From a virus: a DNA stretch of 24,494 nucleotides. How positions within the stretch are numbered: the stretch's first letter is position 1; every line of letters begins with the position of its first letter. Where the stretch lies: positions 1 to 24,494 of the IMG/VR virus record IMGVR_UViG_3300043466_000459. One strand, 5' to 3'. This document shows, one piece after another, positions 5,143 through 22,684 of this stretch. Below the pieces are notes generated by a model. That model worked only from the letters and a program-made list of their open reading frames with translations. It had not been told where the DNA came from and did not search any database. The translations under genes were made by a program, and so were the position numbers.

Positions 5143-5336
5143 CAAATCCTTACGAAGACATTATCTATAGTATGACTTTATTGCGCTCAGGAGTACCTGG
5201 CAAGAGTCAAGAATTTAAGCAAGCAAGTGGCATCCATCACGCGAGGCTAAAGGTGTGGCAAATAAGAGCTATTAATTACACTATACTATTAGGAGTAATC
5301 GGTTTAATCGCACTAACAATTTATAGCATAGCATAA
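5139..5336 (+). CDS. Small single-span membrane protein of unknown function
   Basis: 65 residues. The N-terminal 45 residues are polar and basic, followed by one hydrophobic segment (YTILLGVIGLIALTIYSIA) reaching the C-terminus. Its start overlaps the stop of the tail-tip gene (ATGA) and its stop overlaps the tape-measure start, so it sits tightly inside the tail operon. No family is recognised. A role in tail assembly or in membrane passage of DNA would be guesswork. A C-terminal anchor could place the basic part in the cytoplasm. Confidence 0.6.
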   Translation: MTNPYEDIIYSMTLLRSGVPGKSQEFKQASGIHHARLKVWQIRAINYTILLGVIGLIALTIYSIA

Positions 5337-7573
5337 TGGCTACACAAGAGATGATATTAAAACTCTCCTTTAATGACGAGGGTACTTTTCAAGGTTTAGA
5401 GGAGATTAATCAGGAGCTGCAAACAGTAGACAATTCTACGCAGAAATTAGAGAAATCCACTAAGACTTTAAAGCAGCAATATGCTGAGCTGAAAAAACAG
5501 CAAGACCAATTCGATCCAGGCACTGAGAAATTCAATCAGCTATCTCAGAAGATGGGTGAGCTGAAGGATAGAATGAATGATGCGGCTGAAGCTGTTAAGG
5601 GTAATACAGGGCCTGCTATTGAGGGAATGAGCAACACCTTTGGAATCATGGGTGAGCAGCTTAAGAATTTAGACTTTGAAGGATTAAGCCAATCGCTTCA
5701 GACGTTCAGCGGAAATCTTTCACGCATTGACACTAAGGCTTTATCAGCTGGATTGAAAGGTGCATTTCAGGCAGGTATAGCAGGTGTTAAAGCATTAGGA
5801 AAAGCTATCTTAGCGAATCCTATTTTACTTTTAGTAGCAGCTATCATTAGTGTTATAGCTTATTGGGAAGAGCTGACTGATTTGGTTAGTGGAAAGAGCA
5901 AGATGCTTGAAGGTTTAAAGCAGCAAGCTGAAGTACTTAAATCTCAAGAGCAAGCTTTAGCAAGACAGATGGCGCTTCAAAAAGCATTAGGAGCAGGAGC
6001 AGCTCAGATGTTACGCACTGAGTTAGAAATGCTCAAGAATAAGCAGGCTCAAGCTGAAACAGCTATGAAGATAGCTTACTTAGAAAAAGATAGAGCAGCA
6101 TTCTTAGAGGCGCAGCAATCACAATTACAAGCCATCAATGATCTTGAGATTAGAAAGGTTAAGATTAACCAAGATGCTCAAGCTTTATTAGATAAGATTC
6201 GCTCAGGTACTGACGAGCAATATAATAAGCAGTTATTACAGAATCAGGCATTCAGTGAATACAAAAAAGCTACTGAAGAGCTTACTGTATTGCAGCAATT
6301 AAATAATGAGAGAGCAGTCCAAATTAACAAAGAGATAGCAGCAGCTCGCCAAGCTGGCAATAATGCTTTAGCTAATCAGTTAATTTTAGAGAGAGAGTCA
6401 TTAAAGAATCAAAATATCAGCCTTCAAAATAATAAGGATGAGATTTGGAACGCAGGGCAAGCCGCTAAAGATAGTGTTAAGACTGAAAAAGAACTTGAAG
6501 CTATTGCAAAAGCTAAGGCAGCAGCAGCAGAGAGAAAAGCTAAAGCCGATGCTGAAGCTAAAAGAATAGCAGATGAAGCTTTAGCAGTAGACAAGAGATT
6601 AGATGAAGTAGAAAAAGCAAGAGCAGATGCTAAGAAAACAGCTTTAAATAAAGAGTTAGACGACACATTAGCACTACAAAAGAAAGAAGAAGAAGCTTAT
6701 GTAGCAGCTAAAAAAAGTGAGACTGAGCTACAAGATTTAAAAATAAGACACTCACAAGAGCTTCAGGGTATACTTCAGAAATTTGCTGAGTTAGAACAAG
6801 AGAAAGCTGATGAAGATGCAAAGAAATTAAAAGAGTTACAGCAAGAGGCAATTAATCAAAAACAAGCTGAATTAATAGAGCTTCAATCTATTATTGATGG
6901 AGCAGATGAAGCTAATTACCAATCAAAATTAAGTAAGCAAGAGCAGGAGCTAATGGCTTCTCAAGAGTATTACTTTCAACTTAAGACTCAAGCGGAAGCA
7001 GCAGGATTGGATGCTACTGCATTGGTAGAAGAGCAGGCTCGGAAAGAGAATGAGATAAAAGAGAAGTACAGAAAGGAAGATCAGGAAAGAAGAATGGCTA
7101 ACATTCAATCGAACTTCGAGATGGCAGGCCTTGCTTTAGATGCACTAAGCTCATTAAATGAGGCAGCTGCTAAAGGTGATGAAGCAAGCCAGCGCAAAGC
7201 CTTTGAACGTAATAAGATGATTCAGAAGGCGCAGGCTACAATAGCCATGGCTTCGGGTATTGTTCAGCAGTTAGCAGTGCCACAAGACCAACTAACAGGA
7301 ATGAACTTCGTAAAAGCAGCAGCTGTAGCAGCAGCAGGGGTAGCTAACATTGTTAAGATTAACCAAACGCAGTTTAATGGTAGCGGAACAGGTAGCGGAG
7401 GTAATGGAGATTTAAATGCACCAACAGGAACAGCTAATGCACCGGCTATTGACTTTAGCGGAGCAGCAATGAATAACAACGCGCCTGGCACTACTGAGAC
7501 TTATGTATTAGCAGGTAACGTGGCTAACGCATTAGAGGCACGACAAAAGATTATTGACCAATCATATCTATAA
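5336..7573 (+). CDS. Tail tape measure protein
   Basis: 745 residues, dominated by coiled coil. Residues about 18-90 form a heptad-rich helix (LEEINQELQTVDNSTQKLEK). A strongly hydrophobic segment lies at about 156-176 (AILANPILLLVAAIISVIAY), as is usual in tape measures. A long Lys/Glu/Ala/Gln coiled coil follows from 190 to 620. The last 130 residues are Gly/Asn/Ala-rich (NGSGTGSGGNGDLNAPTG). In siphoviruses the length of this protein sets tail length. At about 0.15 nm per residue this would suggest roughly 110 nm. It lies downstream of the tail-tip genes, whereas canonical siphoviruses put it upstream. The coiled coil plus hydrophobic segment make the call fairly secure. Confidence 0.8.
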   Translation: MATQEMILKLSFNDEGTFQGLEEINQELQTVDNSTQKLEKSTKTLKQQYAELKKQQDQFDPGTEKFNQLSQKMGELKDRMNDAAEAVKGNTGPAIEGMSNTFGIMGEQLKNLDFEGLSQSLQTFSGNLSRIDTKALSAGLKGAFQAGIAGVKALGKAILANPILLLVAAIISVIAYWEELTDLVSGKSKMLEGLKQQAEVLKSQEQALARQMALQKALGAGAAQMLRTELEMLKNKQAQAETAMKIAYLEKDRAAFLEAQQSQLQAINDLEIRKVKINQDAQALLDKIRSGTDEQYNKQLLQNQAFSEYKKATEELTVLQQLNNERAVQINKEIAAARQAGNNALANQLILERESLKNQNISLQNNKDEIWNAGQAAKDSVKTEKELEAIAKAKAAAAERKAKADAEAKRIADEALAVDKRLDEVEKARADAKKTALNKELDDTLALQKKEEEAYVAAKKSETELQDLKIRHSQELQGILQKFAELEQEKADEDAKKLKELQQEAINQKQAELIELQSIIDGADEANYQSKLSKQEQELMASQEYYFQLKTQAEAAGLDATALVEEQARKENEIKEKYRKEDQERRMANIQSNFEMAGLALDALSSLNEAAAKGDEASQRKAFERNKMIQKAQATIAMASGIVQQLAVPQDQLTGMNFVKAAAVAAAGVANIVKINQTQFNGSGTGSGGNGDLNAPTGTANAPAIDFSGAAMNNNAPGTTETYVLAGNVANALEARQKIIDQSYL

Positions 7574-7578
7574 CGAAA

Positions 7579-7731
7579 ATGGCAAACTTTCCACTATTAA
7601 AAAAGTGCGTAGAAAGAGGAGTTCGAAACGCACTATCTGAAATTGATAAGACTGAGCTACAAGATACCGAGGCTATAATAGATGAAGTAATTGAAGCTAT
7701 ACTATTTGAAATAAATGAAACCTATGAATGA
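7579..7731 (+). CDS. Small acidic protein between tape measure and protease genes
   Basis: This 50-residue ORF starts 6 bases after the tape measure stop, in the A-rich context AACGAAAATGG. Its stop overlaps the protease start. The sequence is a Lys/Arg-rich N-terminal helix (FPLLKKCVERGVRNAL) followed by an acidic helix (TELQDTEAIIDEVIEAILFEI), plausibly a helical hairpin. Tight packing and codon use like its neighbours argue that it is real. No family is recognised. Confidence 0.55.
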   Translation: MANFPLLKKCVERGVRNALSEIDKTELQDTEAIIDEVIEAILFEINETYE

Positions 7732-8317
7732 TAAATTGAAGTTAATTGAATATGGCCTCGGAGAGGAAGAGGATAACATGGGGGTATACGCTGTGAGCCT
7801 TGTATCTGAGCCTGCTATAATGGTAGACTTTGTAGCACTGTCTAAAGCTAACTTGTTATTAGCTCGCGTGGAAGATGGAGAGAAGCGCATGCTCTATGGC
7901 CCTGCATTAATTCCTAATCAGCCTATAGTTAGATATGATGGGAATGGAGAAAAATACTTTATCACTTACTCTAAAGAGACCATTGAGCAGACAGCTCAGG
8001 AATTCCTGAAGCGTAACATGCACCATAACCATACTATTCAGCATGAGATGCCTGTGAATAATCTTACAGTAGTAGAATCATGGATTAAAGCAGGTGCGGA
8101 TAAAGGTGATAACTACGGCTTTGAACTGCCTGATGGTACGTGGATGATTGGAGTAAAAGTAGATGACGATAAGACGTGGGCAGCTGTAAAGAATGGCGAG
8201 GTTAAAGGCTTCTCTATAGAGGGATGGTTTACTCCAATGGGTGAGAGCAACGTATCTGAGAAAGACTTAGAGAAGCTGTTGGCTGAATTGGCTGCAGCTC
8301 TTGAAATGAATTTGTAA
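7715..8317 (+). CDS. XkdF-like prohead protease
   Basis: 200 residues. The sequence matches what I know of the XkdF / S78-type prohead serine proteases of Bacteroidota and Firmicutes phages. An N-terminal SLVSEPAI precedes ALIPNQPIVRY. HHNHTIQHEMPVNNLTVVESWI carries candidate catalytic His residues, and VKNGEVKGFSIEGWF carries the conserved K-G-F-S-I-E-G-x-F motif with the candidate nucleophile Ser. Such enzymes cleave scaffold and capsid N-termini during head maturation. The position directly before scaffold and capsid genes fits. Two starts are possible: 7715 and 7724 (MNDKLKLIEYG). The latter overlaps the previous stop and is slightly more typical. Confidence 0.8.
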   Translation: MKPMNDKLKLIEYGLGEEEDNMGVYAVSLVSEPAIMVDFVALSKANLLLARVEDGEKRMLYGPALIPNQPIVRYDGNGEKYFITYSKETIEQTAQEFLKRNMHHNHTIQHEMPVNNLTVVESWIKAGADKGDNYGFELPDGTWMIGVKVDDDKTWAAVKNGEVKGFSIEGWFTPMGESNVSEKDLEKLLAELAAALEMNL

Positions 8318-8338
8318 TTTTTTCCACTAACTAATATA
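8315..8338 (+). promoter_or_regulatory. Shared noncoding element upstream of the scaffold/capsid unit
   Basis: Starting at the protease stop codon, 17 bases ending in TTCCACTAAC match positions 20101-20117 at 15 of 17 places. The core CACTAACTAATATA (8325-8338) recurs exactly at 13283-13296. No TAnnTTTG box is visible here although a highly expressed unit starts. It is a candidate late-promoter or mRNA-processing element. Function is inferred only. Confidence 0.35.
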
Positions 8339-8342
8339 ACAC

Positions 8343-8915
8343 ATGAACATGATTCAAGAAATTTTAAACAAATTCAGCCCGATGCTTAGTAAGCATGGGA
8401 TCAAACTATCTGTTGAAGAGACTCCTGCTGTTGAAGAATCTACTAAAGTAGAAATGATGGCTCAAGAGACTCTTGAAGATGGTACTATTGTTTACACTCC
8501 AGCTCCTGAGATGGCAGAAGGTGTAGAAGTATTCGTAATGGATGCAGATGGCAATCCAACACCTGTAACCGATGGCGAGTATAAGTTAGCTAACGGCACT
8601 ACTATAGTAGTAGCAGAAGGCAAGATAGCTTCTATCGCTGAGGCAATCACTGAAGAGCCAACTGTTGAAGTAACTATTGAGCAGGAAGTAGCTGAGACTT
8701 ATAGCAAAGAGCAAGTAGAGGGATTGTTAAATAACATCATGGCTGAGTTCGAGGCTAAGCTTAGCGCTGCTGAAGCAAAGATAGTAGAGCTTTCACAAGC
8801 ACCTGCTGCAACAACTGTTAAGCAATCTCGCCAATCAGCACCTGCTCAGCCTGTAGATATGTCACGCATGACATCTCAACAAAGAGCATTCGCAATTTTA
8901 AGTAAATTCAAATAA
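8343..8915 (+). CDS. Probable capsid scaffold protein
   Basis: 190 residues, strongly acidic (many Glu). It lies between the prohead protease and the major capsid gene, the usual place of a scaffold. A short N-terminal helix (MIQEILNKFSPML) is followed by beta-like repeats (DGTIVYTPAPEM, GVEVFVMDADG, DGEYKLANGTTIVV). A coiled coil at about 120-150 (EQVEGLLNNIMAEFEAKLSAA) leads to a Gln/Ala/Pro linker and a basic C-terminal helix (SQQRAFAILSKFK). A basic C-terminal helix contacting capsid is common in scaffolds. The second ATG at 8349 is an alternative start. Cleavage by the upstream protease is expected but not visible. Confidence 0.7.
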   Translation: MNMIQEILNKFSPMLSKHGIKLSVEETPAVEESTKVEMMAQETLEDGTIVYTPAPEMAEGVEVFVMDADGNPTPVTDGEYKLANGTTIVVAEGKIASIAEAITEEPTVEVTIEQEVAETYSKEQVEGLLNNIMAEFEAKLSAAEAKIVELSQAPAATTVKQSRQSAPAQPVDMSRMTSQQRAFAILSKFK

Positions 8916-8941
8916 ACACAAAATAAAAACAAAAACAAAAA
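8916..8941 (+). promoter_or_regulatory. A-rich translation leader of the major capsid gene
   Basis: The 26 bases between the scaffold stop and the capsid ATG contain only A, C and one T, with no Shine-Dalgarno. Bacteroidota use A-rich, unstructured leaders for strong translation, so this fits the most abundant virion protein. Confidence 0.5.
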
Positions 8942-9868
8942 ATGGCATCTAATTTATCCATTTCAAGCTCATATGCTGGCGAGTTAGCTCTGCCGTATAT
9001 CAGCGCAGCAGTTTTATCGGGAGATACAATTGCTAACAACTACGTAACCGTTAAGGAAAACGTAAAATTCAAAATGGTACTTAAGACTTTAGCGTCTACA
9101 GGTATCGTTAAGGCTTGGGGTTGTGACTTCGACAACGCAGACACTACTCTTACTTTGGCTGAGCGTGTACTTCAAGTTACTGACCTTAAGGTGAACGTGG
9201 AAGTTTGTAAGGCTCAATTCGCATCGGATTGGGAAGCGGCTCAAACAGGTCGTGGATTCATCAACAATGTTATTCCTGCTAACTTCGCAGACTTCGTTAT
9301 CGCACACCTTTCAGGTAAGGTAGCTGAGAACATTGAATACACTTTGTGGCAAGGTAACTTCGAAGGTTCTTCATTCACTTCTTTCAACGGAATTTTGAAA
9401 GTATTGGACACTGCTAAGAGTGGTACTCCTGATGTTGACTTCGCTAACGCATTCACTGCTGCTAACATCGTATCTTCTTTGACAACTTTAGCTAACGCAT
9501 TACCTGCTACTTTGTTGGGTGACACTACTGTTAAGCTTTACATCAATAGAAAGACTGCTCAACTTTATCGTCAAGCGTTAAGCGCTTTGGGTTACTTGCA
9601 ACAGTTCAACGCTGCTTCTAACTACCCATTGATGTTTGATGGATATGAGATTTATGTTTGCCCAGGTATTCCTGACAACGTAGCTTTATTCGCTAAGGTA
9701 GATAACCTATTCTTTGGTACTGACTTAGTATCTGACTTCAACGAAGTTAAGGTTGTAGATATGAGCGTAACTGATGGATCAGATAACGTGAGAATGGTTA
9801 TGAAGTTTCGCGCAGGTACTCAAGTAGCTATTCCTGCTGAGGCTATCTTAGGATTCATGAATCCCTAA
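8942..9868 (+). CDS. Major capsid protein (probable HK97 fold)
   Basis: 308 residues. The sequence and position fit major capsid proteins of Bacteroidota siphoviruses. The N-terminal part is SNLSISSSYAGELALPYI. A long helix-like segment includes AAQTGRGFINNVIPANFADF, and the E-loop/A-domain-like end contains FDGYEIYVCPGIPDN and FFGTDLVSDFNEVKVVDMSV, closing with a beta-rich GTQVAIPAEAILGF. The protein forms the icosahedral shell. Codon use differs visibly from neighbours: TTC and AAC are favoured over TTT and AAT, as expected of a highly expressed gene. An A-rich leader precedes the ATG. No independent signature fixes the fold, but gene order supports it. Confidence 0.8.
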   Translation: MASNLSISSSYAGELALPYISAAVLSGDTIANNYVTVKENVKFKMVLKTLASTGIVKAWGCDFDNADTTLTLAERVLQVTDLKVNVEVCKAQFASDWEAAQTGRGFINNVIPANFADFVIAHLSGKVAENIEYTLWQGNFEGSSFTSFNGILKVLDTAKSGTPDVDFANAFTAANIVSSLTTLANALPATLLGDTTVKLYINRKTAQLYRQALSALGYLQQFNAASNYPLMFDGYEIYVCPGIPDNVALFAKVDNLFFGTDLVSDFNEVKVVDMSVTDGSDNVRMVMKFRAGTQVAIPAEAILGFMNP

Positions 9869-9962
9869 TTAATACTCCTTTGTTAAAAGAGTGGGTAAGC
9901 TAAGAGCTGCCCATTCTTTGCAAAGAATATTTCATAATAATAAAAAAAAATTACACACAGAT
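9869..9962 (+). promoter_or_regulatory. Capsid-tail tube gap with three stem-loops and a perfect 16-bp palindrome
   Basis: Three adjacent hairpins are visible. ACTCCTTT/AAAAGAGT lies at 9874-9892 (one mismatch). TGGGTAAGCT/AGCTGCCCA lies at 9892-9913 (small bulge). The perfect palindrome ATTCTTTGCAAAGAAT lies at 9913-9928. An A-rich leader with a 9-A run precedes the next ATG. No T-run follows the hairpins, so this is not a standard terminator. It could modulate readthrough or protect mRNA ends. Confidence 0.45.
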
Positions 9963-10505
9963 ATGAGCTGTCTAACTACCGCTGGATTCCAGATCAACTG
10001 CCGCGAAGCGATCGGGGGGATTAAAGCAATCTACCTTGGCGCCTATGATACATTTGCTAATTCAGCTGCTATCACCGATAACGAAGTTACGGCTTTAGCA
10101 ACTGGTAGCATTTACGAATTTTTATTACCTAAGCATACAGGATCATTCACCGAAGAGGCTGCTATCAGCGTTGAGAATGGCACTGTATTCTACACTCAAA
10201 CTGTTGTAGCTATGTTTCATGGCATGACAGCTGAGCGTGCACTACAACTTCAGAACATTGCTAAAGGCCGTAACGTACTTTGGGTATTGGATAACAATGA
10301 TAACCTTTGGATGTGTGGCTATAAGGATGGAGTGCAAATCACTGCATTTACTACAGCTACAGGAACAGCTAAAGGAGATATGTCAGGATTTACAGTTACA
10401 TTCACAGGAGAGGAGAAAGATAAAGCTTACTACCTTACTGTTAGTGATACTACTGACGTATGGGATGACTACTCTACAATTACTGTAGTACAAGGTTCAC
10501 TATAA
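9963..10505 (+). CDS. Probable tail tube (major tail) protein
   Basis: The ATG at 9963 (MSCLTTAGFQINCREAIGGI) gives 180 residues. An upstream in-frame GTG at 9891 would force the hairpin region to be coding and is rejected. The protein is beta-rich with FLLPKHTGSFTEEAAISVENG and a QTVVAMFHGMTAERALQLQNIAKGR helix, followed by VLWVLDNNDNLWMCGYKDG. This is a strand-helix-strand arrangement I associate with tail tube proteins of Bacteroidota phages. It would polymerise around the tape measure. Its location right after the capsid gene, with the portal further downstream, is unusual. A head decoration protein is the alternative. Confidence 0.55.
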   Translation: MSCLTTAGFQINCREAIGGIKAIYLGAYDTFANSAAITDNEVTALATGSIYEFLLPKHTGSFTEEAAISVENGTVFYTQTVVAMFHGMTAERALQLQNIAKGRNVLWVLDNNDNLWMCGYKDGVQITAFTTATGTAKGDMSGFTVTFTGEEKDKAYYLTVSDTTDVWDDYSTITVVQGSL

Positions 10506-10506
10506 G

Positions 10507-10514
10507 TAAATTTG
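10507..10514 (+). promoter_or_regulatory. Candidate Bacteroidota -7 box before the portal gene pair
   Basis: TAAATTTG matches TAnnTTTG exactly and lies in the short gap between the tail tube stop and the ATG at 10530. No clear TTG/TTTG -33 box lies 17-23 bases upstream, so it is weak or a chance match. If active, the leader would be only about 8-10 bases. Confidence 0.3.
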
Positions 10515-10529
10515 TGCTATATTTAAAGC

Positions 10530-10940
10530 ATGATTTACTTACTCAAAAATACAGCAGCACAGCTCCTCTACCTTACACTAAAGGAAGGGGAGCTTTTGCT
10601 TGCTAATCCATACACTCATTACCTGCTTGAACTAACTAACGAGCAGACACTTCAAAAGCTTTACGCTATTCCTACTAAGATAGCAGAGAATGATAGGTAC
10701 ACTACCATTCAGATTGGCACAAATGCCAACACACCAACAGCTGCAAGCCTACTAATTAACTACCCAGCTCGATTCAGCTACGTAGTTTATGGCCAAAATA
10801 GCAGCACTAACTTAGATCCTACCAACGCGGCAGTAGAGGGGATAATAGAGAAGGGGTATTTAATCGTTGAAGATATTACTACTCCCCGATTTACTGAGCC
10901 GAATTTAACAATAGATAACGATATAGCCTACAATGGATAA
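10530..10940 (+). CDS. Unknown structural-region protein
   Basis: 136 residues, beginning MIYLLKNTAAQLLYLTLKEG, with alternating hydrophobic strands (LLANPYTHYLLELTN, RFSYVVYGQNSS) and a late GIIEKGYLIVED motif. I recognise this pattern as common among unnamed proteins in head gene clusters of Bacteroidota phages but know no function. It overlaps the portal start by 8 bases, which suggests coupling. A head-associated or connector role is possible from location only. Confidence 0.6.
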   Translation: MIYLLKNTAAQLLYLTLKEGELLLANPYTHYLLELTNEQTLQKLYAIPTKIAENDRYTTIQIGTNANTPTAASLLINYPARFSYVVYGQNSSTNLDPTNAAVEGIIEKGYLIVEDITTPRFTEPNLTIDNDIAYNG

Positions 10941-12702
10941 TACAGCACACTCAGCACCAATGTTAGTTAATCTTGGCGCAGCAATGCCTCAGGAAGCTAC
11001 CGAGAAAGAGACTCCTAAAGGATGGGTAACGCTTGGCGAGGCGAATTTATTCAGCAACTATTTGATAGACCTTTACTATGCCTCTCCTGTGCACTCTGCA
11101 TTAACGATGAGCATAGCTTTCATGATAGCAGGGAAGGAAATTAAGAGTAACAATCCTGCTGCTCAAAGAGAGATAGATAGACTTAAATTAAATACTATTC
11201 GTAGACCTATAGCATTGGATGCAAAGATGCAGGGCGGATATTACTTAGAGGTGATTTGGTCAGTAGATAGAAACACTATTGCTAAGATTAATCATCTGCC
11301 ATACGAAAACTGCCGCTTAGCTGTGGCTAATGATGAGGATATTATACCGGGTATTTATTACTCAAAGGATTGGTCAGATACTCGCAAGAAAAAAAACATT
11401 CCTGTATTCATCCCGATGTATAACACTACCACGAAAGCAGATGAGCCTTCGCAAGTGTTATTCGTTGGAGTAATGACACCAGGCAGCGCTTACTATCCTA
11501 AGCCTGATTACTACAGTGCTATTAATTACATTGAAATTACTCGCGACATTAGCGAATTTTATAGAGCATTCTTAAGCAATGGAATGGCACCGAGCTATTT
11601 CTTGCATATGAACAATGGCATTCCTGATCCTGAGGAGCAGATGGCTATTCGCAGAAATTGGGAGACCATGGTAGGTGCTAAGAAAGCAGGTAAGGTAGTA
11701 TTCACATTTAATGAATCAGCTGATAGAGCACCGCGTTTAGACTTAGTGCCAATGTCCGATGCAGATAAGCAGTGGCAAGAATTAAGCGTGCAGTCAAGAG
11801 AGAATATCTTAGCAGCTCACCGCGTAACTTCACCCCTATTATTTGGTATTAGAGATGCAGGTGGATTAGGAAGTAACGCAGATGAAATGAAGCAGGCTTA
11901 CCGAATCTTCAACAGAAACATCATTGAGCCTTACCAACAAATTATAACAGACAGCCTTGAAGAGATATTTAAAGGCATGGGCATTGTTGCTGATTTATAC
12001 ATTGAGTCTAATGATATATTCGGCGAAGAAATCACTACAACAACTGTTGCACAAACTGCAACAACTCAACTAAGCGCTGAAAAAAAAAAGTCTAATTTAG
12101 ATCCACAAGAGAAGCCTCCAATCTTTACCGATGAGGACGAGAATTGGTGGTGTGAATTCTTAGAAGATAAGGGCGAGATTGTAGATGAAGATGAGTGGGA
12201 ATTAATCGAAGCTGAGCCTGTTAATCTTGCATCAGTTAGAAGCTATGCAGATCCTGATAAGCCATCTGAAATGGATAGCGGCCTTTATAAGATTCGCTAC
12301 GCATACTCTAAGAACACAAGCGCTAAAAGCAGAAGGTTTTGTAGACAAATGGCCAACGCTGCACGCGCTGGATTTGTGTATAGATATGAGGATTTGCAAG
12401 CTATGGAGCCTGATACTAATACATTAAATCCAGGCTTAGCACAAAGAGGCAGCACTACCTATTCGGTTTGGTTATACAAGGGAGGAGTCAATTGCAAACA
12501 TGCTTTCGAGCGCAGAGTATATTTCCGCAAAAGAGAGAAGGGAAGATTCATTGCTGATAATGGCTTAGAGTCATCTAATCCAATCTCAGTAGCAAGAGCT
12601 ATTAGAGCAGGCATGCCTTTGAAAGATATAGCTAAAGACTTTGCTACAGCTAACACTCGCCCATTTGATATGCCTGATAATGGCAGAGTTAATCCAATCT
12701 AA
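10933..12702 (+). CDS. Portal protein fused to an extra C-terminal domain
   Basis: 589 residues. Residues about 20-365 look like a phage portal: FSNYLIDLYYASPVHSAL, IRRPIALDAKMQGGYYLEVI, PYENCRLA, PDYYSAINYIEITRDISEF, and SVQSRENILAAHRVTSPLLFG, where the last is the typical late portal helix and loop. The portal ring forms the DNA entry vertex. A Thr-rich linker (about 365-382) and a Lys run lead to an extra 200-residue domain with WWCEFLEDKGE, SRRFCRQMANAARAG and LYKGGVNCKHAFERRVYF. The last segment has a C-x-H pair that could bind metal. HK97-type portals are usually near 400-450 residues, so the tail is an addition. Its function is not recognised. Confidence 0.8.
   Translation: MDNTAHSAPMLVNLGAAMPQEATEKETPKGWVTLGEANLFSNYLIDLYYASPVHSALTMSIAFMIAGKEIKSNNPAAQREIDRLKLNTIRRPIALDAKMQGGYYLEVIWSVDRNTIAKINHLPYENCRLAVANDEDIIPGIYYSKDWSDTRKKKNIPVFIPMYNTTTKADEPSQVLFVGVMTPGSAYYPKPDYYSAINYIEITRDISEFYRAFLSNGMAPSYFLHMNNGIPDPEEQMAIRRNWETMVGAKKAGKVVFTFNESADRAPRLDLVPMSDADKQWQELSVQSRENILAAHRVTSPLLFGIRDAGGLGSNADEMKQAYRIFNRNIIEPYQQIITDSLEEIFKGMGIVADLYIESNDIFGEEITTTTVAQTATTQLSAEKKKSNLDPQEKPPIFTDEDENWWCEFLEDKGEIVDEDEWELIEAEPVNLASVRSYADPDKPSEMDSGLYKIRYAYSKNTSAKSRRFCRQMANAARAGFVYRYEDLQAMEPDTNTLNPGLAQRGSTTYSVWLYKGGVNCKHAFERRVYFRKREKGRFIADNGLESSNPISVARAIRAGMPLKDIAKDFATANTRPFDMPDNGRVNPI
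12080..12095 (+). other. Slippery A10 run with in-phase A_AAA_AAG and immediate off-frame stops
   Basis: Ten A residues (12080-12089) followed by G encode Glu-Lys-Lys-Lys at residues 383-386 of the portal fusion. The heptamer A AAA AAG (12084-12090) is in the phase used for -1 frameshifting. A -1 slip reads GTC then TAA (12093-12095), ending the protein at 387 residues. A +1 slip reads CTA ATT TAG. A 7-bp hairpin (12045-12063) lies 17 bases upstream of the run. Frameshifting itself is not shown. Confidence 0.45.
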
Positions 12703-12719
12703 TTAAACACTAAACAACA

Positions 12720-13292
12720 ATGGCAATAGCACCGGAAATATTATTCATTAACGAGGAATTCTTAAAGAAGTACACTCAGCTTAATGAGGCTGTAGATACT
12801 AACTTAATTAGACCTGCAATGTATCTCGCTCAAGATAAGTACATGACCTTATACCTTGGCACTGATTTAACTAATAAGATTAAATCTGAGATAAGCGCAG
12901 GCACATTAGCTGGAGTGTATGCAACTCTATTAAATGAATACATCGTTAAGCCAACGGCTTGGTGGACAATGGTAGAGCTTTATCCTTTCCTAATGTATAA
13001 GCACGACAATGGTAACTTAGTTACACGTCAATCTGAGAATACTACAGCCATAACTAAAGGTGAGATGGATAGCTTAGTAGAGAAGGCACGTGAGAATGCT
13101 CAGTGGTACACTCAGCGCTTAGTAGATTATTTGTGCGACAATAGCAGCAGCTATCCTGAATACAGCTCTAATAACTTTCCTGATATCCATCCATTGCGCA
13201 AAGTGAACAGGCAGAGCACTGTAGCTTTTAGTGAGGGGAGAAATTATGATAGCGCTTGGAGCAGATTCAACGTGAGAGATTTCACTAACTAA
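12720..13292 (+). CDS. Head-tail connector / adaptor-like protein (DUF6712-like)
   Basis: 190 residues, mainly helical. LFINEEFLKKYTQLNEAVDTNLIRPAMYLAQDK opens the protein, and TNKIKSEISAGTLAGVYATLLNEYIVKPTAWWTM follows, resembling the helical bundle of gp6-like head-tail adaptor proteins after a portal. I recall similar Bacteroidota phage proteins as DUF6712. Position right after the portal supports a connector role. The first ATG follows an A-rich leader (TTAAACACTAAACAACA). The C-terminal tail (YDSAWSRFNVRDFTN) is polar. Confidence 0.6.
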   Translation: MAIAPEILFINEEFLKKYTQLNEAVDTNLIRPAMYLAQDKYMTLYLGTDLTNKIKSEISAGTLAGVYATLLNEYIVKPTAWWTMVELYPFLMYKHDNGNLVTRQSENTTAITKGEMDSLVEKARENAQWYTQRLVDYLCDNSSSYPEYSSNNFPDIHPLRKVNRQSTVAFSEGRNYDSAWSRFNVRDFTN

Positions 13293-13297
13293 TATAC

Positions 13298-13411
13298 ATG
13301 ACAAAGGAAGAAAAAACAAGAAAAGACTATGAGCGAAAGCTTAAAGTCTACTTAAGCAAACGAGATAAAGAACTTAGAAAGCATGAAAGCACCAACAATA
13401 GACGAGCTTAA
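13298..13411 (+). CDS. Small highly charged protein overlapping the lysin gene
   Basis: This 37-residue ORF starts 6 bases after the connector stop and overlaps the lysin start by 29 bases. The sequence is almost entirely Lys, Arg, Glu and Asp (MTKEEKTRKDYERKLKVYLS) and forms an amphipathic helix in projection. It could be a real small protein or a translational coupler that delivers ribosomes to the lysin start. No family is recognised. Confidence 0.4.
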   Translation: MTKEEKTRKDYERKLKVYLSKRDKELRKHESTNNRRA

Positions 13412-13928
13412 GGCTCAATTTACAGAGCTTGGCTACAAATGGCCATCTATTCACATCGTGGGTATCCGCAGCAAAGCTAACGAGCCTAACAAATTTGACG
13501 ATCTAATAGGCTTGGTGCAGGGTAATGAGGTCAAGTGGTACACTGGCACAACTAATCCAGGTACTTTTTGGCTTAATAATCCCATGAATAAGTTAGGCAC
13601 AGCAGTTTTAAAGCCAGGGCAATACGTAGACACATACACAATAGGGCTGCATCAGGGCAAATACAGCGCATTAGTGCAGTCAAAGAAAGTAACTGTATTC
13701 AGAGATGCGGACAAAGATTCAATAGCTGAGGAGCAAGGTAAAGAAGATACAGGCCTATTTGGAATTAACATCCATCGTGCTAATGAATTAACAGAATCTA
13801 AGAACATTGATAAGTGGAGCGCAGGCTGCCAAGTGTTGAACATTCCTAAGCAATACAAAGAGCTAATCCAAGCGTGTATTAAATCAAACAAAAAGGCATT
13901 TACTTACACTCTATTAAAAGAGATATGA
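13383..13928 (+). CDS. L,D-transpeptidase-like lysin (candidate endolysin)
   Basis: 181 residues without a signal peptide. The C-terminal half contains FGINIHRANE (His131) and KWSAGCQVL (Cys149). The spacing and surroundings resemble the L,D-transpeptidase (YkuD) active site H-x(13-17)-[ST]-x-G-C, with Ala replacing the usual second His in S-H-G-C. A hydrophobic beta core (GTAVLKPGQYVDTYTIGLHQG) precedes it. Related phage proteins are annotated as endolysins or peptidoglycan cleaving enzymes. Location directly before holin-like genes and the spanin pair supports lysis. Which peptidoglycan bond is cut cannot be told from sequence. Confidence in the fold is moderate. Confidence 0.65.
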   Translation: MKAPTIDELKAQFTELGYKWPSIHIVGIRSKANEPNKFDDLIGLVQGNEVKWYTGTTNPGTFWLNNPMNKLGTAVLKPGQYVDTYTIGLHQGKYSALVQSKKVTVFRDADKDSIAEEQGKEDTGLFGINIHRANELTESKNIDKWSAGCQVLNIPKQYKELIQACIKSNKKAFTYTLLKEI

Positions 13929-14101
13929 GCAACCATCAGCAACAAGTAGCAGAAGGAGTAACCGGCACTATTAGCAGCATTCTGTTATCAGTGCCAGCAT
14001 GGATGTTAGATGTTGAATTTGCATTAAAAATATTCTGCCTACTATTATCAGCAGCTGCATCCATCTTTACCATCTATAAGATGAATAAGAAGCGCAGATG
14101 A
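13925..14101 (+). CDS. Small membrane protein, candidate holin
   Basis: 58 residues with two hydrophobic stretches, TISSILLSVPAWML (about 15-28) and ALKIFCLLLSAAASIFTIY (about 33-51), and a basic end (KMNKKRR). It starts inside the lysin stop (ATGA) and its own stop overlaps the next start, so it belongs to the lysis cassette. Short two-segment proteins of this kind often act as holins that release lysin. Equally short neighbours leave open which one is the holin. A pinholin or antiholin is an alternative. Confidence 0.5.
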   Translation: MSNHQQQVAEGVTGTISSILLSVPAWMLDVEFALKIFCLLLSAAASIFTIYKMNKKRR

Positions 14102-14337
14102 AATGGCTGAAGAGTGTATTCAGTAACGAGACCGATGCGAGCTCTAAGAGAGTGGCATCTATCTTAGCGTTAGTAGTATGCATTAACTTAAGTTACATAG
14201 GCACATTTACTGAATACAAAACTCCTGAATACATGTTTGATGGCTTATTGATTTTAGCAGGTGGAGGGTTAGGGTTAACAGTTATAGAATCTATCTTTGC
14301 AAATAAAAAGAAATCTAATGACGAAGGATCAAATTAA
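14098..14337 (+). CDS. Two-span membrane protein, candidate holin or antiholin
   Basis: 79 residues. An N-terminal basic segment (MKWLKSVFSNETDASSKRV) is followed by two membrane segments, ASILALVVCINLSYIGTF and MFDGLLILAGGGLGLTVIESIF. The Lys-rich C-terminus (ANKKKSNDEGSN) should face the cytoplasm. The Gly-rich second segment is seen in many small proteins of Bacteroidota phage lysis regions. It overlaps the i-spanin-like gene by 20 bases. Confidence 0.5.
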   Translation: MKWLKSVFSNETDASSKRVASILALVVCINLSYIGTFTEYKTPEYMFDGLLILAGGGLGLTVIESIFANKKKSNDEGSN

Positions 14338-14665
14338 GGGCGCTATTTTTATAGCTGTAGCTATCACCATCTGCATAATTATTCAGAGTTTATACATCAG
14401 AATTAAGCAGGATGAAAAGACTATTGAAGGTTATGAGCGTAGAGCAGATAGAGCTACTCACGTTATTGATAGCTTAGAAGCTACCAATGTGCAGCGCATG
14501 CTTCAGATAGAGGAATTAAATCAGCAGTTAGAAAGAAATAAAGAAAGATATGAAGCAAACATTAGTGCTATTGATTCTCTTGATAGGCATGGGCTGCGCA
14601 GAGCCATGCACTCTCTACTCGCAGAGCTTGCAGGAGAGAGATACCCTGGTCAGTCTAACGACTAA
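14318..14665 (+). CDS. i-spanin-like (Rz-like) inner membrane protein
   Basis: Starting at ATG 14318, the product has 115 residues: a short basic N-terminus, one hydrophobic segment (IFIAVAITICIIIQSLY), then a long charged coiled coil (EKTIEGYERRADRATHV, MLQIEELNQQLERNKERYE). This is the layout of i-spanins, anchored in the inner membrane with a periplasmic coiled coil. An upstream TTG start at 14297 is less likely. Its 3' third overlaps the next lipoprotein gene in another frame, as Rz/Rz1 pairs often do. The overlap is 116 bases. Confidence 0.6.
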   Translation: MTKDQIKGAIFIAVAITICIIIQSLYIRIKQDEKTIEGYERRADRATHVIDSLEATNVQRMLQIEELNQQLERNKERYEANISAIDSLDRHGLRRAMHSLLAELAGERYPGQSND

Positions 14666-14948
14666 GGAAGTAAGAGCATTACTTAAATTAAAGGCTGAGA
14701 GAGATTATCTTAAGACTCAGTTCATAACGCTATCTAAATCGGATAGCATTTCAGCTATTGTTATTAAGGATCAGCAGAAGTCTATAGACGCATGGGCGCT
14801 CACCAACGAAAAGACTTCTCAGCAGTTAGTTAAATCTCAGGAAGATTTATACAAAGAAGCTGCACGTAAAGAATCTTGGCGCAGTGCAGCGCTTATAGGT
14901 ATTCCCATCTCATTCGTGGGGGGTATTATCTTCACTCTACTTTTCTAA
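14550..14948 (+). CDS. Lipoprotein with C-terminal membrane segment: u-spanin-like
   Basis: 132 residues. The N-terminus has a signal-peptide-like core and a lipobox-like Cys (MKQTLVLLILLIGMGC, Cys16). The residue at -3 is Gly rather than the usual Leu/Val/Ile, so the lipobox is weaker than ideal. The middle (about 40-105) is helical and charged (ALLKLKAERDYLKTQF). The last 20 residues are hydrophobic (ALIGIPISFVGGIIFTLLF) and run to the end. N-terminal lipid plus C-terminal membrane segment is the signature of unimolecular spanins such as T1 gp11, which bridge outer and inner membranes and fuse them at lysis. The gene begins inside the i-spanin-like gene, as o-spanins do. It could be an o-spanin with an unusual tail. 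Confidence 0.6.
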   Translation: MKQTLVLLILLIGMGCAEPCTLYSQSLQERDTLVSLTTKEVRALLKLKAERDYLKTQFITLSKSDSISAIVIKDQQKSIDAWALTNEKTSQQLVKSQEDLYKEAARKESWRSAALIGIPISFVGGIIFTLLF

Positions 14949-14950
14949 AC

Positions 14951-14975
14951 TAACAAATCTTTGTTAATAACTTTG
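14951..14975 (+). promoter_or_regulatory. Perfect inverted repeat followed by candidate -7 box
   Basis: TAACAAA-tc-TTTGTTA (14951-14966) is a perfect inverted repeat directly upstream of TAACTTTG (14968-14975), which matches TAnnTTTG. No clear -33 box is present at normal distance. The repeat lies where a -33 region would be, so it could be an operator. Confidence 0.4.
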
Positions 14976-14995
14976 CTAACTTTAGTAAGGTTTCT

Positions 14996-15026
14996 TTTGC
15001 TTTTCTAAAATATCGTAGTACATTTG
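14996..15026 (+). promoter_or_regulatory. Strong Bacteroidota-type promoter of the early/replication unit
   Basis: TTTG (14996-14999), 19 bases, then TACATTTG (15019-15026) match both the -33 and -7 consensus of Bacteroidota promoters at proper spacing. Transcription would start near 15032, about 17 bases before the ATG at 15049. It probably drives the 15049-20100 genes, which end at the terminator near 20150. Confidence 0.65.
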
Positions 15027-15048
15027 CTAAAATTAAATCAATAAGCAA

Positions 15049-15162
15049 ATGAAAAAAGCACTACTCTTCTTAGCCATGCTAATAGCAGGCCTACTCATCG
15101 GAGGTTCATTCGATGCAGACACAGCTAAATTAGAATCACAACCAAATCACATATCTAAATAA
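15049..15162 (+). CDS. Small secreted or membrane peptide, first gene of early unit
   Basis: 37 residues: a Lys-Lys start and a strongly hydrophobic stretch (ALLFLAMLIAGLLIGGSF), then a short polar tail (DADTAKLESQPNHISK). It may be a signal-anchored or secreted peptide. It is the first gene after the TACATTTG promoter. No family is recognised. Superinfection exclusion proteins are sometimes of this form, but nothing specific supports that. Confidence 0.5.
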   Translation: MKKALLFLAMLIAGLLIGGSFDADTAKLESQPNHISK

Positions 15163-15164
15163 TC

Positions 15165-15347
15165 ATGAAAACACTTTTTGAAATTGTTGAGATAGCGAAG
15201 TACGATGGCACTCGCTACATGTTAAAAATTGATGGTAGCTACTATAAAGCATTCAGCACCTATGAGGAAGCTTTTGCTGAGTTCACATTAGCTACTAACT
15301 TCAGAGAGACTCGCACTGTGTTAGTTAGTAAGGAGGTAGAGTTATGA
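15165..15347 (+). CDS. Small unknown early protein
   Basis: 60 residues with mixed beta/alpha pattern (EIVEIAKYDGTRYMLKIDG, YYKAFSTYEEAFAEFTLA). Translation starts after the AATAATC leader that recurs in this phage. It overlaps the next start by 4 bases. No family is recognised. Position suggests early expression and perhaps host takeover, but that is conjecture. Confidence 0.55.
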   Translation: MKTLFEIVEIAKYDGTRYMLKIDGSYYKAFSTYEEAFAEFTLATNFRETRTVLVSKEVEL

Positions 15348-15574
15348 GCTTCGTACTTAAAGTAACTCCTCTACGTGAGGATAGAATCAGCTTATACAGC
15401 CGCTTGAATATTCCTACTCAGTTTGAAGCTGAGACCTTTGAGATAGCTCAGCAGATGGCTGCTTTAATGTTTGACCTTTACAACTTCAAAGAAACGTTAC
15501 CATTCCAGGAAGAGTTCACTGAATATTCTATTGAAGGTGAAGGATTTTTAATTGAGATAGAAAAAGTTTTATAA
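15344..15574 (+). CDS. Small unknown acidic early protein
   Basis: 76 residues (MSFVLKVTPLREDRISLYS, EIAQQMAALMFDLYNFKE) ending in acidic strands. It is coupled to the preceding gene by a 4-base overlap, and both seem to share a beta-helix-beta outline with a central Glu-Ala or Glu-Ile helix, which could mean that the pair is related by duplication. That is too weak to assert. No family is recognised. Confidence 0.55.
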   Translation: MSFVLKVTPLREDRISLYSRLNIPTQFEAETFEIAQQMAALMFDLYNFKETLPFQEEFTEYSIEGEGFLIEIEKVL

Positions 15575-15594
15575 ATTAGCAAAAATTAATAATC

Positions 15595-15825
15595 ATGAAT
15601 AAACCAAACAACATTACCGGTAAGGTAATCGTATCTCGGTGGGATGCCGAAGGATGCGGATGGAAGCTGTACACATCAGCCCACAGCTACTCATTAACTG
15701 ATTTCTCAATAGCCAAGAAGCATGGCGAGGTGTATCCTGAAGATGGCACTTTTCTATTTCAATTCGAGAGCGAAGGTGAAGAGAATGTACACGATTACTT
15801 TATGTCTGATCGTTATGTTATCTGA
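15595..15825 (+). CDS. Small unknown early protein
   Basis: 76 residues starting after ATTAATAATC, the same leader type as 15165. The sequence is beta-rich and aromatic (GKVIVSRWDAEGCGWKLYT, GTFLFQFESEG), acidic in the second half, and ends MSDRYVI. No family is recognised. Its stop overlaps the start of the next small gene. Confidence 0.55.
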   Translation: MNKPNNITGKVIVSRWDAEGCGWKLYTSAHSYSLTDFSIAKKHGEVYPEDGTFLFQFESEGEENVHDYFMSDRYVI

Positions 15826-15970
15826 TAGATATAACAGCCGCTTTATTTGCGTGCAGAGCTCACTACCGGGAGAGGAGTTAGAGTTCAACGAGATGGCTCA
15901 GAAAGTAGTCTATGAATCTTGGCGTAGTTACTTCATCAATAATCCCCATGAACTACAACAGGGAGCCTAA
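15815..15970 (+). CDS. Small unknown protein overlapping both neighbours
   Basis: The ATG at 15815 gives 51 residues (MLSDRYNSRFICVQSSLPGE, then a helical QKVVYESWRSYFINNP). It begins 11 bases before the end of the previous gene and runs 23 bases into the SSB-like frame. A longer in-frame start at 15722 would overlap the previous gene almost fully and is disfavoured. Tight overlap on both sides supports it, but it could be non-coding. Confidence 0.45.
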   Translation: MLSDRYNSRFICVQSSLPGEELEFNEMAQKVVYESWRSYFINNPHELQQGA

Positions 15971-16568
15971 TTGGGATAAGCTCAAGCCATCAATAGATTG
16001 GGATGAGCAAGAAGAAAAGTTAGCAGAAAAATTAAGTAAATACATAAATAAAAACAACACAGTTATGAAACAAGGAATTGTTAAAAGTCAGAAATTCGTT
16101 AGAACGTGGGATGGCCCAAGCGGAGCAATCCATTACTTTGACCTTGTGTTAGAGAATGGAGAGGTAGGGCAGGTAGGAGTTAAGGACATGCAGAGCCCGA
16201 AGATAGCAGTAGGTGCTACCATTCACTATACAGCTGAAGAGCGCACTGGACCAACAGGTAGAAAGTCAACTAACTTTAAACTACAAAATCCTAACCCATT
16301 TAATGGCTCATCTTCTGCTCCAAGTGGTGCGGTGAATAGCGCTGTTAATTACCGCAAAGAAAGCCCTGATGTACAGAATTCTATCAGCAGATCAGTAGCG
16401 CTGAACAATGCAGTTCTATTCTGCAAAGAGCAGAAAGGTAGTAAGCCAGGTGATGTATTAGATACAGCTGAGATATTCTTGGCTTGGCTTAAAGAAGAGG
16501 AAGTTAAAGTTAGTTCAACAATTAATTCTAAATTAGATGAAGCAAGCGACGATGAAATGCCATTCTAA
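15948..16568 (+). CDS. SSB-like single-stranded DNA-binding protein
   Basis: The C-terminus EASDDEMPF closely resembles the acidic SSB tail (DDDIPF) that recruits host replication and repair proteins. The N-terminal core (MKQGIVKSQKFVRTWDG, YFDLVLENGEVGQVGVKD, GATIHYTAEE) fits an OB-fold-like beta barrel. A Ser/Pro/Asn-rich linker and a helical section (about 140-185, ISRSVALNNAVLFCKEQ) intervene. Two starts are plausible: 15948, adding an acidic helical leader, or 16065, which has a very A-rich leader and gives 167 residues. The latter looks more natural for an SSB; the former retains a full frame with charged coding-like sequence. Binding of DNA is inferred from these features only. Confidence 0.65.
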   Translation: MNYNREPNWDKLKPSIDWDEQEEKLAEKLSKYINKNNTVMKQGIVKSQKFVRTWDGPSGAIHYFDLVLENGEVGQVGVKDMQSPKIAVGATIHYTAEERTGPTGRKSTNFKLQNPNPFNGSSSAPSGAVNSAVNYRKESPDVQNSISRSVALNNAVLFCKEQKGSKPGDVLDTAEIFLAWLKEEEVKVSSTINSKLDEASDDEMPF

Positions 16569-16773
16569 GCTTACTCCATTTCACAGCTGGGTTCGCAGTC
16601 ACTTTGTGACTGTGGCTCAGTTCGCTGAAGTGCTAGAGGTGAGTTACCCTACAGCTCAGAAATACATTAAGCAGCCGCGTAGCATGAAGGTTACGCACAT
16701 AGGCAAACTTGCTAATATAACTGAGGAAGAGATACCATACATATTAGAATTAATGAAAGACAGTAAACCATGA
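16552..16773 (+). CDS. Small helix-turn-helix DNA-binding protein
   Basis: Start at ATG 16552 (MKCHSKLTPF), overlapping the SSB-like stop; a start at 16537 is less likely. 73 residues. FVTVAQFAEVLEVSYPTAQKYIKQP forms a clear helix-turn-helix, with TAQKYIKQ as likely recognition helix. The rest (ITEEEIPYILELMKD) is an oligomerisation-like helix. It could be a Cro-like regulator or replication-region binder. A perfect dyad (16596-16612) lies within its own 5' coding part, consistent with autoregulation. Confidence 0.6.
   Translation: MKCHSKLTPFHSWVRSHFVTVAQFAEVLEVSYPTAQKYIKQPRSMKVTHIGKLANITEEEIPYILELMKDSKP
16596..16612 (+). promoter_or_regulatory. Perfect dyad inside the HTH gene
   Basis: CAGTCAC-TTT-GTGACTG is a 7-bp perfect inverted repeat with a 3-base spacer, about 45 bases into the coding sequence of the HTH gene. 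It encodes the SHFVT segment. It could be an operator or an mRNA hairpin; coincidence from codon use remains possible. Confidence 0.35.
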
Positions 16774-17024
16774 GTAACAATAGAGTAAGTATTATAGATC
16801 AATTATATTTTGAGTTAGCATTTAAATTAGACTGGACTCCTGACATGGAGGAATTGTTTGAACAAGCCCGAAATATACATAGGCAAGAAATTCAAGAGGC
16901 ATTTATTGAAGGGAGTAAATTAGAATTTGTAAATGAAAATTCATTGAGCCAATCTCTTGAGGCAAAATTTGAATCATTGCTTTTCTATAAATCTAAATAC
17001 GAAGAAAATGAGCAAAGCAATTGA
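16770..17024 (+). CDS. Unknown acidic helical early protein
   Basis: 84 residues, helical and acidic (PDMEELFEQARNIHRQEIQEAFIEGSK, LEAKFESLLFYKSKYEE). It resembles small unnamed proteins common in Bacteroidota phage early regions with the same MEELFEQA-type motif. The stop overlaps the DnaA-like gene start by 17 bases. Function is unknown. Confidence 0.55.
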   Translation: MSNNRVSIIDQLYFELAFKLDWTPDMEELFEQARNIHRQEIQEAFIEGSKLEFVNENSLSQSLEAKFESLLFYKSKYEENEQSN

Positions 17025-17496
17025 TAGAAAGATAGCAGATTTAATTCTACTTATACCAGCGGAGCAGCAGCTTCATGCGCGTAGACGAATTGATAACTTA
17101 GTTAGAGCTGTAATAGAGACGCCCATACCTGAGCTTAAATGGCAAACCATTAACGGAGAGATAGAGTCTTTAAATGAGCAGCGCGTTAATGCCATGATGA
17201 AGGTAGTATGTAATTTAACTCATGTAGAATGGAGCGAGCTTAAGGGCAAATCTCGTAAGCGTGAGATTAATGATATACGTCAAACGTCTATGTGGATTCT
17301 ACGCAAGGGCACTTCTCTAAGCTTTGCTAACATCGGAGCTATATTTAATAGACATCATGCGACTGTGCTGCACGCTGTAGATTCGGTTAACAATATGATT
17401 CAAACAGATCGCATGTACAGAGGACATGTAGAGCAGATTCTAAATCACTTAGACAATGAGAATCTTAATAAGGCTTTCGATAAACTAACAGATTAA
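17008..17496 (+). CDS. Stand-alone DnaA domain IV-like replication initiator
   Basis: Start ATG 17008 (162 residues); an upstream TTG at 16957 is disfavoured. Residues about 78-142 match DnaA domain IV, which binds DnaA boxes: KSRKREINDIRQTSMWILRK, then SFANIGAIFNRHHATVLHAVDSV. The NRHHATVLHA segment aligns with the signature G-R-D-H-T/S-T-V-x-H-A. There is no AAA+ ATPase domain, so it is not a full initiator. The N-terminal 75 residues are helical and unplaced. It probably binds the phage origin and recruits or blocks host DnaA. The TTATAC dyads at 22823-22884 are candidate targets. Confidence 0.75.
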   Translation: MSKAIDRKIADLILLIPAEQQLHARRRIDNLVRAVIETPIPELKWQTINGEIESLNEQRVNAMMKVVCNLTHVEWSELKGKSRKREINDIRQTSMWILRKGTSLSFANIGAIFNRHHATVLHAVDSVNNMIQTDRMYRGHVEQILNHLDNENLNKAFDKLTD

Positions 17497-17516
17497 TAAT
17501 TAATAAATCAATAATC

Positions 17517-18002
17517 ATGGAACAAACTAAAATGAAATTCGACAAAAGAAAGCAAGAGCCGGTAACTATTCAGAGATTACAACAGGCAGTAGATTTAATA
17601 TCGCAAGGTCTTATGTTAACCCAGGCACTTCGTAAAGTAGGATTATCAGGATCAATGGGTAAGTATTTAGTAGATGCAAGAATTCTTGGAAGGTATGATG
17701 GTAAAACTGTATTTGTAGTAAAGCCAAAATTAGAACGTAAAGATTTCTATAGAATAATGGAGATTCAAAAGAAAAACCGTCATAAAAAATACCTTCAGCA
17801 AAAAGAAAAAATGAAATATACTTCATTCCTTTTGCAGAAGAAAGATAGTCAATTTGTAGATATACCTACCGACATGCTCGGCTTAGTTAACATGCCAAAA
17901 ACTGAGCCTATAAAATTACTGCGCACTCCAAAGCCAAGAGTAAAAAAAGCAGTAGCACTGCCATGGTGGAAGAGAATCTTATTATATTTGGCTAATCATT
18001 AA
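17517..18002 (+). CDS. Unknown basic protein with HTH-like N-terminus
   Basis: 161 residues, highly basic. Residues about 18-55 (QRLQQAVDLISQGLMLTQAL, then GLSGSMGKYLVD) resemble a helix-turn-helix or small winged helix. The middle is Lys-rich (KKNRHKKYLQQKEKMKY), and the end is a tryptophan-containing amphipathic or membrane-touching segment (LPWWKRILLYLANH). The leader ATCAATAATC before the ATG matches other early genes. No family is recognised; DNA binding is likely from charge and fold hints only. Confidence 0.55.
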   Translation: MEQTKMKFDKRKQEPVTIQRLQQAVDLISQGLMLTQALRKVGLSGSMGKYLVDARILGRYDGKTVFVVKPKLERKDFYRIMEIQKKNRHKKYLQQKEKMKYTSFLLQKKDSQFVDIPTDMLGLVNMPKTEPIKLLRTPKPRVKKAVALPWWKRILLYLANH

Positions 18003-18015
18003 TCAATAAACCAAT

Positions 18016-18339
18016 ATGACAACAATCTTATTAAAGCGCATAGAAGCGCTTGAGGAGAGAGTGCGAGCGCTTGAATCTAAGCGCTCTGCCTCTACTAAAT
18101 TCACCCCTCCATCACTATCAGATGTAGTAGAATACCTACAAGATTTAGTATTAGCTAAGAAATTCTACTGCCACTATGAATCTAATGGATGGAAGGTAGG
18201 CAGAAATTCCATGAAGAGCTGGAGAGCTGCTGCAGATCAATGGAAAGCAAGAGATACTAACCAACAAAAATCTAAAGAAGATGAGCAAAAGATTGGGCGC
18301 ATTAGCACATCAGAGCTTCAGTCGTTCACTAAGCGCTGA
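18016..18339 (+). CDS. Replication-region protein with FYxHYESNGWKVG motif
   Basis: 107 residues. An N-terminal leucine-zipper-like helix (LLKRIEALEERVRALESK) precedes a small domain, FYCHYESNGWKVGRNSMKSW. This motif (Y-x-x-N-G-W-x-V-G-x-x-x-M-x-x-W) occurs at the C-termini of phage replication proteins, where it may contact DNA or partner proteins. Here it is free-standing with a coiled coil. The C-terminus is polar and overlaps the next gene by 59 bases. Confidence 0.6.
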   Translation: MTTILLKRIEALEERVRALESKRSASTKFTPPSLSDVVEYLQDLVLAKKFYCHYESNGWKVGRNSMKSWRAAADQWKARDTNQQKSKEDEQKIGRISTSELQSFTKR

Positions 18340-20100: not shown

Positions 20101-20117
20101 TCATTTCTTCCACTAAC
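20101..20117 (+). promoter_or_regulatory. Second copy of the shared noncoding element
   Basis: Just after the stop codon, this 17-base block ending in TTCCACTAAC matches 8315-8331 at 15 of 17 positions. It lies immediately before the terminator hairpin and upstream of the 20166-22673 packaging genes. It may be a late-promoter element or part of terminator control. Confidence 0.35.
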
Positions 20118-20125
20118 AATAAGAG

Positions 20126-20151: not shown

Positions 20152-20165
20152 ATTAATTTTAGCGT

Positions 20166-22673: not shown

Positions 22674-22684
22674 GATAACTCCAT

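Follow-up and report, generated by a model that had tools for sequence, protein, structure and literature searches.

The question raised by this locus is why a phage portal gene should carry ten consecutive A's exactly where its core gives way to an added domain. The portal ring is assumed to consist of twelve copies of a single subunit, and a slip in reading such a run could give two forms of the protein from one gene. The locus lies in an IMG/VR virus record of 24,494 bases, the whole of which was analysed and is here called the window.

The portal gene and its A10 run

The window carries a head-gene module (Table 1) in which the ORF at 10933-12702 is a phage portal protein of the PBSX/HK97 type. 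Its residues 25-586, which include the C-terminal domain (C-domain), match phrog_33693 (portal; E=1.5e-73). The matches to PF04860 Phage_portal (E=7.3e-9) and to the NCBIfam profile TIGR01540 PBSX portal (E=2.2e-19) are significant, the first just below and the second below its curated cut-off, and a relative (L042) scores above Pfam's cut-off for portals. Elsewhere in the window, an A9 run (9942-9950) falls in the 5' part of a GTG-initiated ORF (9891-10505) whose true ATG is probably downstream of the run, and the overlapping ORFs 14297-14665 and 14550-14948 resemble an inner/outer spanin pair, the second starting with a lipoprotein-like signal.

A preliminary description, made from the window alone, had reported an A10G stretch encoding EKKK at residues 383-386, in the linker between the portal and its extra domain, with an A_AAA_AAG heptamer in the -1 slippery phase and stops one codon after a -1 slip (TAA) and two codons after a +1 slip (TAG). 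All of this is exact to the base. The codons at 12079-12090, GAA AAA AAA AAG, specify E383 K384 K385 K386; the -1 frame, equivalent to the insertion of one A, continues GTC TAA and would yield 387 residues ending in EKKKV, and the +1 frame, equivalent to the loss of one A, continues CTA ATT TAG and would yield 388. A10 is the only A/T run of at least ten bases in the window, where a first-order Markov model expects 0.19; taken alone, this is weak evidence.

Table 1. Features of the window
Feature	Coordinates (strand)	Remarks
Window	1..24494	IMG/VR virus record, 24494 bases
XkdF-type protease	7715-8317	Head-gene module
Capsid	8942-9868	Head-gene module
Portal-C-domain fusion gene	10933..12702 (+)	589 aa
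Portal core	11209..11964 (+)	Residues 93-344; basis, PF04860 match
Lys152-154	11386..11394 (+)	Internal control; protein equally conserved, codons free to vary
Hairpin	12045..12063 (+)	TGTTGCA-CAAAC-TGCAACA; 7-bp, perfect; 16 bases upstream of the A10 run
A10 slippage run (putative)	12080..12089 (+)	Followed by G12090; between portal core and C-domain
A_AAA_AAG heptamer	12084..12090 (+)	-1 slippery phase; element of the preliminary description
TAA closing the -1 frame	12093..12095 (+)	One A inserted; one codon past the run
TAG closing the +1 frame	12098..12100 (+)	One A lost; two codons past the run
C-terminal domain	12160..12699 (+)	~180 residues; common to other portals and XkdF-type head proteins
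DUF6712 protein	12720-13292	Head-gene module
Terminase large subunit	21354-22673	Head-gene module

Conservation of the run and of the stops beside it

Relatives were retrieved through protein similarity, with the run not used as a criterion, and the clade sample comprises the 103 distinct relatives of more than 55% identity that span the site. Every one has A10 (100) or A11 (3) with G as the next base; a search of the clade for homologues encoding the linker without a slippery run, proposed in the preliminary description as a check, thus found none. The Glu codon changes to Gln or Leu and the adjoining Ser and Leu codons are variable, and in one group (L041) the site is displaced by one codon phase (TTA AAA AAA AAA GTT) with the ten A's intact. 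On a tree built from the N-terminal codons, the wobble positions of codons 383, 384, 385 and 386 changed 0, 0, 0 and 1 times, against a mean of 10.65 changes at 49 two-fold purine columns elsewhere in the gene.

Such constancy could in principle come from the protein, if a Lys-rich linker were selected as a flexible or basic hinge, or as a cleavage site for the head protease, with the A's following from codon bias. KKK is indeed present in most members, in a linker between two domains, and an XkdF-type protease is encoded in the same module. However, AAG makes up 52% of the Lys codons of the portal gene, and at Lys152-154, our internal control, the codons vary freely (AAG/AAA usage of 60/43, 90/13 and 48/55, with 19, 7 and 5 wobble changes). 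Moreover, K386 has become Asn in several lineages while A10 stayed unbroken. Selection on the peptide is therefore a highly improbable explanation, and the run, as judged from these alignments, is neither chance nor peptide constraint.

More distant portals were added through profile scans, and 297 distinct ORFs that combine a portal core with a C-domain were scanned, the junction being set by domain coordinates. A run of A9-A13 lies in the junction in 171 of the 297, the junction representing 14% of the codons; the other 86% of codons hold five such runs. The 171 ORFs are related, metagenomic and phylogenetically nested, and amount to 28 groups at 80% identity rather than 171 independent events. 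They make up 99/99, 63/69, 8/83 and 1/2 of the members of four clusters and none of the remaining ones, with a median distance of 11 residues from the run to the start of the C-domain. In a second family, about 33% identical to the window's portal, the run occupies the same border in 63 of 69 members, where EKKK, QKKK, VKKK or EKKN is read from GAA AAA AAA AAG/AAC/AAT and similar codons. Overall, the peptides over the kept run include EKKK, QKKK, VKKK, LKKK, CKKKS and EKKN, and codon phases 0, 1 and 2 all occur. Since the run is constant while peptide and codon phase change, selection acts on the nucleotides rather than on the residues.

The length of the run is narrowly kept, with A10 in 157 of the 171, A9 in 7, A11 in 3, A12 in 2 and A13 in 2. 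Long homopolymers are classical contingency loci, and replication slippage in the DNA might in that case toggle the C-domain on and off across the phage population. However, despite lengths of 9-13, in no portal ORF of the assembled contigs does the run put the C-domain into another frame, and a mutable switch would not give a fixed length of 10; we consider phase variation very improbable. The genomes as a whole also set the site apart: the second-family loci (348 kb) contain 58 border runs of at least A10 and none elsewhere, where a Markov model expects 32.5, and the loci of the window's own family (645 kb) contain 96 border runs and 3 elsewhere, against 6.7 expected. Long A/T runs are avoided in these phages except at the portal/C-domain border.

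The stops beside the run are kept as well. Alignment of the homologues, which the preliminary description had called for, showed that within the clade the -1 frame is closed within two codons in 94 of 103 members and the +1 frame in 99 of 103. Across families, the test used one representative per 80%-identity group (n=28), with Lys/Asn codons of the same genes as controls and with tail values that assume independent groups, which is only approximately true. By this measure, insertion of an A leads to a stop within two codons in 21 of 28 against 23% of controls (tail 7e-9), and all 28 representatives meet a stop within 13 codons in each of the two shifted frames, as do 61% of controls (tail 1e-6).

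The earlier suggestion that a short conventional portal is made beside the long fusion is thus well supported by evolution, both in the clade (103/103) and through recurrence at the same border in families about 30-35% identical, but it does not extend to all distant C-domain portals. Several families lack the run, including a cluster of Nonlabens phages, GC-rich families and 75 of the 83 members of one cluster, so the putative device, as far as these genomes tell, is not universal among C-domain portals; in such families the short form may not always be needed, or may be made otherwise. Among the tblastn matches in a phage collection, no cultured phage has the run, and the only cultured phages that share the C-domain, Nonlabens P12024S and P12024L, are both without it. 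As for a host, a scan of genome contigs found no relative.

The C-terminal domain and the linker modules

What the shifted frames would remove is a domain with the signature R-x-F-C-x-x-M ... GG-x-x-C-x-H in our alignments. It has no match in Pfam. Its AlphaFold model, which is moderately confident (pLDDT 69), found nothing in a fold search of the PDB; against BFVD, Foldseek returned portal and XkdF-type proteins of uncultured phages with E down to 1e-8. By its signature and predicted fold, then, the domain is a member of a portal/XkdF C-terminal domain family. A MuF domain, which the motif had suggested, was rejected: none of 52 members matched PF04233 or PF06152 with E values of up to 5 allowed, comparison with Mu gpF by hhalign gave a probability of 0.1%, and the fold search offered no support either.

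In the fetched loci, the C-domain occurs outside portal ORFs only in the second copy of L287, in L132, in L371 and in L380. The last two (L371:2995-5662 and L380:351-4413) have a portal without the A-run and with a different C-terminal extension, and here the C-domain is a separate overlapping ORF that begins at the portal stop (ATGAGTAA). By analogy with SPP1 gp7 (below), this arrangement suggests an advantage in leaving some of the portal without the domain. Among individual contigs, L287 has two portal-like C-domain ORFs (2977-4866 and 5986-7854), and L132 has an in-frame TAA (GAA to TAA, 1106-1108) in the C-domain past the run, seen in a single contig and representing either an error or a natural loss. 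L073, which is without a C-domain, is likely a chimeric contig.

The portal linker is also a site for modules in the window's family (L045, L055, L113, L166 and others). Module A (GAQISSALEIV...) always lies 5' of the A-run and module B (GRGGTEVGVARARDIS...WGGDAGRDWA) 3' of it; neither matches Pfam. In L410 (2995-6510), and likewise in L368, L369 and L378, the portal ORF reaches up to 1172 aa, and the sequence past A10 includes a stretch resembling GNAT, the C-domain, an ART-PolyVal domain (PF18760, E=1.5e-17 in L410) and an end like module B. That module A directly precedes and module B directly follows the run in many relatives might indicate that the A's are a recombination or module-joining sequence on whose two sides the modules were inserted. 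We give this reading scarcely any weight: the A's alone are kept while the adjoining bases vary, in the Ser and Leu codons, and most members of the second family have the run without either module.

Possible slippage by polymerase or ribosome, and known systems

Two routes could produce a shortened portal from the run. In the first, which the preliminary description had offered as its second option, RNA polymerase would add or drop one A over the run on some transcripts. In the second, which it had put forward as a dnaX-type heptamer with a hairpin, ribosomes would shift -1 on A_AAA_AAG or A_AAA_AAA, much as on the E. coli dnaX mRNA; the same 387-residue product would result, with ten A's kept in both DNA and mRNA. 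The in-phase A_AAA_AAG is present in the window and in most members, every A10 run contains A_AAA_AAA and would thus permit a shift in every member, and the early -1 stops described above would serve a ribosomal shift equally. On the other side, A_AAA_AAG is absent from members with C or T after the run and from those in phase 0 or 2, and a heptamer needs seven A's whereas all ten stay fixed, even at the third position of the Glu/Gln codon, which the heptamer does not reach. The element that is conserved thus exceeds the ribosomal heptamer, and it is conserved in all three codon phases and before any next base. In a purified cell-free system, sliding of E. coli ribosomes was efficient on A11 and slight on A9 or A10 (PMC4363877), which also speaks against a ribosomal shift here.

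No conserved stem-loop or upstream stimulator was found. The 7-bp hairpin is present in the window as described, but all 7 pairs are kept in just 39 of 96 relatives, all 96 of which have the run, and no unusual folding was found within 70 bases either side of the run (mean z of -0.4 downstream and -0.2 upstream). The upstream hairpin and downstream structure were therefore rejected as stimulators, being neither conserved nor unusual, and the hairpin is probably not part of the device. Programmed ribosomal frameshifting is, on balance, unlikely, with some chance of being right. It is homopolymer length that evolution has held constant, not the heptamer or the hairpin, and this favours slippage by RNA polymerase.

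This site also shares the marks of the slippage described for dnaX of Thermus thermophilus. In many bacterial genomes, selection against slippage becomes visible at runs of nine A/T, and a constant run length across homologues has been proposed as a mark of purposeful slippage (PMC1088944). Here, the run has at least nine A's and a length that is otherwise avoided, its length is constant in homologues (exactly A10 in 157/171), and stops lie nearby in the shifted frames. Comparison of these genomes leads us to propose that A10 is probably a programmed slippage site giving a truncated and a full-length portal, with RNA polymerase a likelier agent than the ribosome. Exact decoding would give the full portal of 589 residues, C-terminal domain included, and a frame change, by an added or lost A or less likely by a ribosomal shift, would lead to a prompt stop and a portal of 387-388 residues, the bare ring-forming core. 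The phage would so set the fraction of subunits that bear the bulky C-terminal domain, and either the 12-fold ring or the free portal pool would be mixed. Slippage itself, its level, the ratio of the products and the entry of both forms into the virion are what we infer.

If a conserved slippage site separates the ring-forming core from a removable domain, many phages may assemble their portal rings from both forms or keep a two-form portal pool, with the ratio of short to long portal set through the length of one homopolymer. It could equally be right or wrong that, in a broad group of aquatic phages, kin of Flavobacteriia phages, length-tuned A10 slippage in transcription sets up a portal ring in which only some of the twelve subunits carry an exchangeable, in some lineages effector-like, C-terminal cargo into the capsid. 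The proposal is also relevant to the question of how domains fused to portals, among them the ADP-ribosyltransferase-like domain of one relative, might be carried at low copy. Slippage to a truncated product was called hard to predict by comparison in a 2005 genome survey (PMC1088944), and the portal would rank among its widest conserved uses.

In a literature search confined largely to papers outside subscription journals, no paper was found that describes slippage or frameshifting for a portal gene, and a review of frameshifting includes no portal (PMC5009743). The polyvalent proteins include portals fused to PBECR, 2H and InPase domains, and L410, whose ART-PolyVal domain follows the run, resembles them; unlike the A10 portals, they are presented with no mention of a slippage site in the parts of that source consulted (PMC5512222). 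At the level of function only, the C-domain may be compared with gp7 of SPP1, which is bound to the portal gp6 in one or few copies, and with MuF proteins, as a low-copy portal-bound head protein with swappable effector domains (PMC6316719, PMC5576092). However, gp7/MuF is encoded by a separate gene downstream of the portal and has no sequence or fold match to the C-domain.

E. coli dnaX shares with the window the A_AAA_AAG heptamer and a shorter product of a -1 ribosomal frameshift; the portals differ from it in having no conserved stimulators, no universal heptamer and a homopolymer whose length is kept. In Thermus dnaX (tau/gamma), the exact copy gives the long protein and slipped copies run into a nearby stop that leaves a shorter functional protein, A9 giving about 50% short product (PMC1088944). 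That gene, however, is a host clamp-loader gene with A9; the portal is a part of the virion with A10, and its proposed device, as comparison of the genomes suggests, spans many phage families. By analogy, the A10 run would work like the Thermus slippage, and its use in a portal, where it would drop a domain from some of the subunits, appears new. The frameshifts of phage head and tail genes, such as T7/T3 10A/10B, the capsid proteins of Lactobacillus A2 and Listeria PSA and lambda G/GT, likewise let one gene supply a structural protein in two forms, short and C-terminally extended, in a defined mixture (see the review PMC5009743). In those systems the longer product results from the shift, whereas in the portal normal decoding gives the longer product and a shift would take a domain away.
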